33,473 nucleotides of DNA. Origin: Verrucomicrobiota bacterium (lineage in GTDB: Bacteria > Verrucomicrobiota > Verrucomicrobiia > Chthoniobacterales > UBA10450). This document shows positions 20,788 through 25,139 of the stretch, in pieces. The first letter of the stretch is position 1; each line of letters begins with the position of its first letter. A model generated the notes under the pieces. The model searched no databases, was not told the DNA's origin, and was given only the letters and a program-made list of their open reading frames with translations. The stretch is from assembly GCA_003218535.1 (NCBI GenBank), contig QHNV01000049.1:1-33473 (forward strand), in the 5' to 3' direction. A program made the position numbers and the translations under genes.

Positions 20788-20793
20788 ATATTT

Positions 20794-21262
20794 TCGATGG
20801 CGATAAGCCGAATTCTGTCGGCGTGATTGCTCACGCGGATGATCATTTATCTTCCAGCCCCAGTTTTTCTGGCCAGCTCTAACCAGCTCGCTGCCTTTCA
20901 GAAAAACTGGAGCTGGACGGGCCTTTTGCGTCGGCGGTCACAGACCGCCGCTACAATTTCGACCGCGTGCGACGATACCCGAGGATCTTGATCGGGCCGG
21001 CTGCCCTTCCTCTGTTTTGTCTTGCACCGCATGGGGTTTTTCCTGCCTCGCGAATTACTTCGCGAGCGGTGAGCTCTTACCTCGCCTTTTCACCCTTGCC
21101 TGCGCTTCTTTCAAAGAACCGGCGGTGTCTTTTCTGTGACACTCTCCGTCAACGTCGGCTTTCGCGGACGTCGCCCGCGTATTTTACGCGGCATGCTGCC
21201 GTATGGTGTTCGGACTTTCCTCCAGCGAATCTTGCGATTCACCAGCGATCATCTGCCATCGA
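20794..21262 (-). ncRNA. rnpB: RNase P RNA (bacterial type A-like)
   Basis: Minus strand contains GAGGAAAGTCCGAACACCATACGGCAG near 5' end and GACAGAATTCGGCTTAT near 3' end, GGTAAGAGCTCACCG internally; P1 pairing TCGATGGC/GCCATCGA defines ends. Confidence 0.93.
20932..20954 (-). repeat. GTAG-headed REP-like palindrome inside rnpB (GTAG + CGGCGGTC-TGT-GACCGCCG)
   Basis: Perfect 8+3+8 palindrome 20932-20950 with ttgtag head on minus strand. Confidence 0.75.
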
Positions 21263-21354
21263 TTGCCAATCTAACACAATCATCAAAGAAGAAAAGAGAA
21301 CCACGGATTACACGGATCCTTTCAGACAGAATTAACAAAATGAAATCCAATTTT

Positions 21355-22396: not shown

Positions 22397-22986
22397 CAGG
22401 TTGGATGCACGACGAATTCAAAACACTGAGGAAATTCGATGCCGGCAAGGGCCGCGAAGGATTTCTTTATTCGCTGCCCGCGCTGGAGGAGCAGGGCATT
22501 GGCAAAATTTCGCGGTTGCCAGTTAGCATTCGTATCGTGCTGGAATCACTGCTCCGAAATTGCGATGGGAAAAAAGCCCGGCGCAAAGATGTCGAGACGC
22601 TGGCTAACTGGAACGCGAAATCGCCCGCGAACTCGGAGATTCCATTCGTCGTCGCGCGTATCGTTTTGCAGGATTTCACCGGTGTGCCGCTGGTGGTTGA
22701 TCTCGCTGCAATGCGCAGCGCGGTGAAACGGCTCGGGCGCAACCCGAAAATCATTGAACCGCTGGTGCCGGTCGATCTGGTGGTCGATCACTCGGTCCAA
22801 GTGGATTTCTTTGGTTCAGCGCGAGCGCTGGAACTCAATCTGGAAATGGAATTCAAGCGCAACCGCGAGCGCTATCAGTTTCTCAAATGGGGGCAGCAGG
22901 CATTTAAAACTTTCCAGCTCATCCCACCGGGAATCGGTATCGTTCACCAAGTTAATCTCGAATACTTGGCCAAAGGCGTTCTCTCC

Positions 22987-23014
22987 TCTCAACCTTCAAC
23001 TCTCAACTCTCAAC
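22987..23014 (+). repeat. Heptamer tandem repeat (tctcaac/cttcaac x4) inside aconitase
   Basis: tctcaac cttcaac tctcaac tctcaac read directly. Confidence 0.85.
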
Positions 23015-24635
23015 TTTACTTCCCCGACACGCTAGTTGGCACGGACTCGCATACCACGATGATCAACGGTCTCGGCGTGGTTGGTTGGGGCGTGGGCGGA
23101 TGGACAGCCGGTTTACTTTTTGACGCCAGAAGTGGTGGGCGTGCACATGAGCGGGCAATTGCGCGAAGGCGTTACCGCGACTGATCTCGTCTTACACATC
23201 ACACAGCTGCTACGCGCGCAAAAAGTGGTTGGCAAATTCGTCGAGTTTTATGGAGAGGGCGCCGCGTCGCTCCCTGTGCCGGATCGCGCAACTATCGGAA
23301 ACATGTCGCCCGAGTACGGCGCGACGATGGGATATTTCCCAGTTGACCATGAATCGGTGGATTACCTGCGGGCCACGGGACGCAGTGAAGAACAATGCCT
23401 TGCGTTCGAAAGTTATTTTCGCGCCCAAAAAATGTTCGGCATGCCGCGCAAGGGCGAAGTCGATTACAGTGTCGATCTCGATCTGGATTTGGCAGACGTG
23501 CAGCCAAGCGTTGCCGGACCGAAAAGGCCGCAGGACCGGATCAACTTGCCGGAGCTCGGAAAGACATTTCGTGAGCTACTCGAGAAACCGGTGCATGACG
23601 GCGGCTACGGAAAAGAGCATGTCGATCTTCGTGAAAAACATCTCGTGGAACTGAACGGAAGCGCGCCAGGGAACGGCGGGATGTTTTCAACCGACAAAAA
23701 GGAGGACCAAGGGATCAGTCCGGGCGAAGAACGCAACGTGCTGGAGATGGTTGCAAACCGGCCAACCCCCGATCCAGGGAAAGAAATTGAGGCGGAATCA
23801 CGAGAAATCTTTACGCGAGGGCGAACGCACATCGGGCATGGCAGCGTCCTGATCGCCGCAATCACGAGTTGCACAAACACGAGCAACCCGAGCGTGATGA
23901 TCGCGTCCGGCTTGCTTGCAAAAAAAGCCGTCGAGCGTGGATTGCGCATCGATCCTGCAGTGAAAACATCACTGGCCCCCGGATCGCGCGTTGTTTCCGA
24001 TTATCTTCACAAAACTGGCCTGCAAAAATATCTCGACCAACTTGGGTTTAACCTTGTCGGTTACGGCTGCACGACCTGCATCGGCAACTCTGGGCCGTTG
24101 CATCCAAACATCGAGAAGACAATCCACGAACACGACCTGGTTGCAGCTTCAGTTCTTTCGGGCAATCGCAATTTCGAAGCGCGCGTGCATCAGCATATCA
24201 AAGCGAATTTCCTGATGTCGCCGCCGCTGGTTGTCGCCTTCGCCCTGGCCGGTCGGGTCCATATCGATCTCTCGCGCGACCCGATCGGAAAAGACAAGCA
24301 CGGCAACGAAACGTTTCTTCGCGATCTCTGGCCGACTCTCAGCGAAATCCGGGACATCATGCAATCCGCGCTCGCCCCTGAAACTTTCCGTCAACTCTAT
24401 CGCGATTTTGCCGGTCAAAATCCGAAGTGGAACGATATTCCATCGAGCACAGGCGACATCTATCAGTGGGACGAGAAAAGCGACTACATTCATGAGCCGC
24501 CGTTCTTTCAAAATTTTTCCATGGAGCCGGGGCACATCGAGGAAATCCGAAGCGCCCGCGCCCTTGGCATTTTCGGCAACACAGTTACCGAACTTGATGG
24601 TGCCCGGAACAGAAGGTGGTGTGACGAAATTCTGG

Positions 24636-24682
24636 GGAGCGCACGCGCCCTCGCGTGCAGTTGAAGGCGCCTCGCCTTCAAC
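24636..24682 (+). repeat. Double-hairpin REP-like element inside aconitase (gcacgcg-ccct-cgcgtgc then ttgaaggcg-cct-cgccttcaa)
   Basis: Two consecutive palindromes 24641-24658 and 24661-24681; first half closely matches the 7990 element (GGnAGCGCACGCG...CGCGTGC). Confidence 0.8.
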
Positions 24683-25139
24683 AAATGGAGAAGCGATGTC
24701 GATCTTCGATGCGGCTACGAAGTATGCGATGAAAAACAGACCGCTGATTATTCTTGCCGGTCACGAATACGGCGCTGGTTCATCGCGTGACTGGGCCGCG
24801 AAAGGAACGCGTTTGTTAGGCGTGAGGGCGGTCATCGCCGCGAGTTTCGAACGGATTCATCGCTCCAACCTTGTCGGTATGGGGGTTTTGCCGTTGCAAT
24901 TTCCCGATGGAACGACGGCGCAATCGCTCGGGCTCGACGGCTCGGAAACTTTTTCGATTACCGGGCTGTCGAATGGCATCAAACCCGGGCAAAAGCTAAC
25001 GCTCGAGATCGAAAGCAAGGACGGACAAGAACGATCAGTCCCGATGAAGCTGCGCATCGATACGCCGATCGAGATCGATTATTACCGGCATGGCGGGATT
25101 CTGCCGTTCGTCCTGCGACAATTGCTGGCGCCATAAACT

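Follow-up and report, generated by a model that had tools for sequence, protein, structure and literature searches.

The window analysed here, a stretch of 33,473 nt, carries rnpB, the gene of RNase P RNA, on the minus strand at 20788..21264. In cmscan, this gene matches RF00010 over the full length of the model (positions 1-367; 204.4 bits, E 2.9e-66), above the gathering score, which is consistent with an RNase P RNA of class A. No second RF00010 match was found across the genome. A preliminary description of this DNA had given rnpB a length of about 469 nt and noted that it exceeds the E. coli RNA of about 377 nt. The gene is indeed long; however, the covariance model gives 477 nt, and the excess stems partly from P18. 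From the 3' strand of P15 to AGATAAATG there are 112 nt in the gene for 22 model positions (cmscan, RF00010), indicating that the model lacks a helix for the hairpin singled out in that description, which is thus not a standard element of the family. On the minus strand, we distinguish an extra helix, specific to the lineage and lying between P15 and P18, at 20917..20968 (outer stem, internal loop and REP tip), defined by the fold of the module and by a covarying counterpart in relatives; a P18 predicted by folding to be extended to ∼63 nt (20916-20854); and, 3' of P18, the conserved AGATAAATGATC segment (20841..20852), recognized from its sequence and from the RF00010 alignment. The palindrome of the long P18, CCAGTTTTTCTG..CAGAAAAACTGG, occurs once in the genome, so that the extended helix is rejected as another mobile repeat. 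The REP and the long, single-copy P18 together account for the length beyond that of a standard class A RNA. Further along the window, a frame that we call aconitase-like from its translated sequence alone (22405-25136, plus strand) is broken into overlapping frames, with a shift near 23.1 kb, and has odd inserts, including a CAACTCTCAACTCTCAACT run at ∼22990-23016 and a segment near 24635-24690.

The tip of the P15-P18 helix is a solo REP of 24 nt (20932..20955, minus strand), with the structure T-GTAG-CGGCGGTC-TGT-GACCGCCG. The GTAG tag lies at 20954-20951, the two arms at 20950-20943 and 20939-20932 and the TGT loop at 20942-20940, so the extra perfect 8-bp hairpin described earlier within rnpB is confirmed at 20950-20932. 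The window holds a single copy of the element, with 0.00 expected from shuffled sequences even at 3 mismatches. In the 2.69-Mb genome, the 23-mer GTAGCGGCGGTCTNTGACCGCCG has 26 copies at ≤2 mismatches and its reversed control has none, which bears out the earlier proposal that the palindrome is a dispersed repeat of the REP class. The borders of the family are sharp: the alignment of copies holds from -2 to +22 and breaks down just outside, and a T stands at -1 in all the copies from which the consensus was built. Moreover, a G-to-C swap in the stem recurs among the copies with its partner changed too, and copies often form inverted pairs separated by short spacers (for example L003, L089 and L103). 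With its GTAG tag, its perfect 8-bp stem and 3-nt loop, and its dispersal as solo and inverted-pair copies, the rnpB hairpin is a GTAG-class REP.

Past mobility of the family was probably due to a RAYT-type HUH transposase. Two proteins of the genome score above the cut-off of NF047646 (NCBIfam, REP-associated tyrosine transposase, or RAYT). Both loci are flanked by other GTAG hairpins, and no copy of the rnpB-type family was found within about 1.5 kb of either of them, a result that counts against the explanation favoured below. G044, a genome of the same order with 99% completeness, contains 23 copies of the rnpB-type REP at ≤2 mismatches. No Y1_Tnp match was found in it despite these copies, which counts in the same direction; its mobilising enzyme may have been lost, may have gone undetected or may be of another kind.

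The preliminary description had pictured the insertion site as a short linker in E. coli. This agrees with the Rfam consensus, but in the window's lineage the site is already a covarying helix. In most REP-free relatives, a helix of ∼8 bp closed by a 4-nt loop is folded at the same place, with P18 coming next, and the tip is of a plain GNRA type in most relatives. Among 12 different empty versions of the helix, 97.9% of the cells are paired, 25 cells are changed on both sides (8.5 in shuffled alignments) and the covariation score reaches 0.848 (0.343 when shuffled). All REP carriers retain the outer stem and have the REP in place of the tip. Thus, the REP replaces the tip of a helix that is present in the lineage with or without it, and the site is not an empty linker. 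Genus g25 provides a filled and an empty gene with matching borders: G150 has CATCACGCGGC-GCGCGAGCG-CCGCGGGCG, whereas G143 has 35 nt including a REP variant between CATCACGCGGC and CCGCGGGCG, and its P18 is nearly as in G150. No clean target-site border exists in the window's own lineage, because G031, the closest genome by module, differs beyond the insert, and this also counts against our favoured explanation. In another pair of rnpB genes, L195 (G081) and L197 (G072), the flanks of the P15-P18 helix are shared and the tip in G081 is a different GTAG hairpin, GTAGCGGCCCCCGAAAGCATTCGGGGCCG, which looks like an in-place remodelling of the REP.

The REP of the window is found at the P15-P18 helix, always in one orientation, in 14 of the 54 rnpB genes tested in the family. 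The earlier view of a mobile palindrome in an essential ribozyme, at a tolerated peripheral site, holds as regards the REP, its dispersal and its peripheral position; however, the insertion is not a one-off event. Of the 29 rnpB genes of the genus that have the module, 6 contain the REP, all exact and in one orientation, and 8 of the 25 further family genes placed on the tree contain it as well. Most relatives lack the hairpin, which is thus far from universal, and this REP was absent from all rnpB genes that we examined in the other families of the order. A pattern scan of GTDB species genomes, restricted to exact letters and one orientation, returned 13 rnpB genes with the REP, all confirmed as RF00010, several of them from genomes already in the family set. 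The insert is present in assemblies from several projects. Among the relatives' records, one is named uncultured Candidatus Udaeobacter and others Verrucomicrobia, Chthoniobacterales or Spartobacteria. The genus of the window is presumably Udaeobacter, and the bacteria with a REP-bearing rnpB are soil relatives of Candidatus Udaeobacter.

REP presence follows no phylogeny. On the family rnpB tree, it changes 13 times, compared with a mean of 12.6 for shuffled labels; 5 changes are forced by well-supported branches alone, and many branches are weak. Two further trees, one of rpoB and a smaller one of rnpB, require 8 changes each; the mapping on the rpoB species tree is limited by apparently misbinned contigs in G022 and G012, whose rpoB genes are near-identical and whose rnpB loci are unlike. 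The modules formed by the helix and P18 are mosaic too. The 68-nt module is the same, letter for letter, in G165 and G191, whose backbones are only 83.8% identical, a finding that points to exchange by recombination, and G191 goes with G132 in the adjoining parts of the gene and in the downstream DNA. Conversely, G013 and G031 have unlike modules, with flanks that are 92-94% identical over their best stretches, and the module of G031 resembles that of the window. Nearly all genomes are metagenome assemblies and some contigs are misbinned, which likewise counts against the favoured explanation; however, an assembly chimera in G191 would require two switches in little over 100 nt. Recombination within rnpB best accounts for modules that do not follow their backbones. 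The scattered distribution and the mosaic modules disfavour a single ancient insertion inherited solely vertically, and an early insertion followed by many losses and exchanges may have taken place. Three other rnpB genes, L009 (G021), L010 (G032) and L012 (G009), have neither the P15-P18 helix nor P18 (CGGGTATGTCGCTAAGATAAATGA). In its 5' part, L009 matches L028 exactly, beyond which the two diverge, and it could be a mosaic or an assembly chimera.

Other hairpins are found in rnpB. A second type of GTAG element is present at P12 in three relatives from three genera: L036 (G028) carries an exact copy of the element GTAGGGGAAGCTGTCAGCTTCCC, which is dispersed in the genus of G028, and L185 (G067) and L198 (G089) carry similar GTAG elements, of the GTAGGGGAAGCT..AGCTTCCC type or similar. 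In addition, a GTCCCGC-NNNN-GCGGGAY hairpin recurs in rnpB of L024, L033, L020, L062 and others, at differing helices (P3, the P15-P18 helix and P18). No enrichment of this hairpin was found in the window, and as no dispersal of it emerged, we rejected it as a further REP; such hairpins may be copied within the rnpB gene.

These observations are, in our view, probably explained by the entry of a GTAG-class REP into the tip of the P15-P18 helix, where it was tolerated and from where it was spread and lost by recombination. A REP once mobilised by a RAYT-type enzyme would have inserted into the tip of the lineage-specific helix of the class A RNA, leaving the outer stem in place and the catalytic core untouched, so that its 8-bp hairpin became the new tip. 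The module of helix and P18 would then have been remodelled, lost and exchanged among related bacteria through short-tract homologous recombination, the conserved rnpB sequence on both sides providing the homology. The REP would presumably be retained in the mature RNA and tolerated without benefit. The copies in rnpB are, however, more intact than tolerance alone would predict: 13 of the 14 are exact over 23 nt and the 14th, the variant of G143, has a compensatory stem swap and a GTGG tag, whereas dispersed copies in the genome are often degraded. High occupancy and exactness may stem from selection or a preference for the site, or from recent spread or exchange, and the carriers are not independent; we therefore favour tolerated insertion combined with recombination, and keep domestication and hot-spot targeting in view as rivals. 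A broader proposal, that mobile REP hairpins serve as exchangeable structural parts of RNase P RNA in the family, each element type at its own helix tip (family 1 at the P15-P18 helix and a family-2-like element at P12), preserved by selection and passed from species to species by recombination, is in our opinion rather unlikely.

The intactness of the rnpB copies, together with the outer stem kept in all carriers and the single orientation, would also be expected if the hairpin had been domesticated, that is, if selection kept it as a functional tip that aids folding or stability or makes a tertiary contact, and the useful module spread by exchange. We regard this as unlikely, since most relatives manage with a GNRA-type tip, the REP does not persist along the phylogeny, and the GTAG tag, needless for RNA pairing, is equally intact, which rather suggests recency or a cause at the DNA level. 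It is less plausible still that the helix tip is a hot spot of repeated, specific insertion, single-stranded hairpin tips being targets of the transposase. The six filled genes of the genus do exceed the ∼0.1 or less given for the helix by a random-insertion estimate, albeit a rough one that sets the noncoding fraction at 10-15% and treats events as independent in carriers that are not, and the P12 elements of three genera point the same way; but modules are common to different backbones, no target sequence common to the empty relatives was seen and the other tips of rnpB lack the rnpB-type REP. Although peripheral rnpB helices are highly variable and the genomes come mostly from metagenomes, a chance hairpin or assembly artefact is hardly credible, chance resemblance being ruled out by the exact 23-nt match to a dispersed family and an artefact being opposed by the assemblies of several projects.

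REPs are mostly regarded as intergenic DNA. STRR repeats were reportedly noted by Vioque in 1997 in rnpB of heterocyst-forming cyanobacteria; they are tandem repeats of the heptamer type. They resemble the REP of the window in being a genome repeat family inside an RNase P RNA gene, and differ in being tandem and in having no GTAG palindrome linked to a RAYT. In Verrucomicrobia, GTAG-tagged REPs are known from Opitutus terrae (PMC3733652). In the account given there, they share with the REP of the window a GTAG at one end, a stem of 6-9 bp, solo and inverted-pair copies and some intragenic copies. The passages of PMC3733652 on intragenic REPs concern protein genes (uvrA, recB and tRNA modification genes) and RNase P does not come up in that paper; the REP of the window resides in an essential ribozyme, always at one and the same helix and recurrently among relatives. 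The Rickettsia palindromic elements, as presented in the same paper (RPE-1, RPE-4 and RPE-6), are likewise palindromic repeats inside genes, but the hosts described there are protein genes, their sequence families are different and RPE-1 is longer. In the literature collection searched, no report of a REP inside RNase P RNA was found.

Here, a REP lies in the essential ribozyme of many related genomes, in natural filled and empty versions, and these pairs are ready material for probing the tolerance of RNase P RNA. The patchy presence suggests that this ribozyme tolerates foreign hairpins at a helix tip, where they are gained, lost and exchanged repeatedly. It offers a traceable case of how mobile DNA can become peripheral helices of a catalytic RNA and pass from one species to another.
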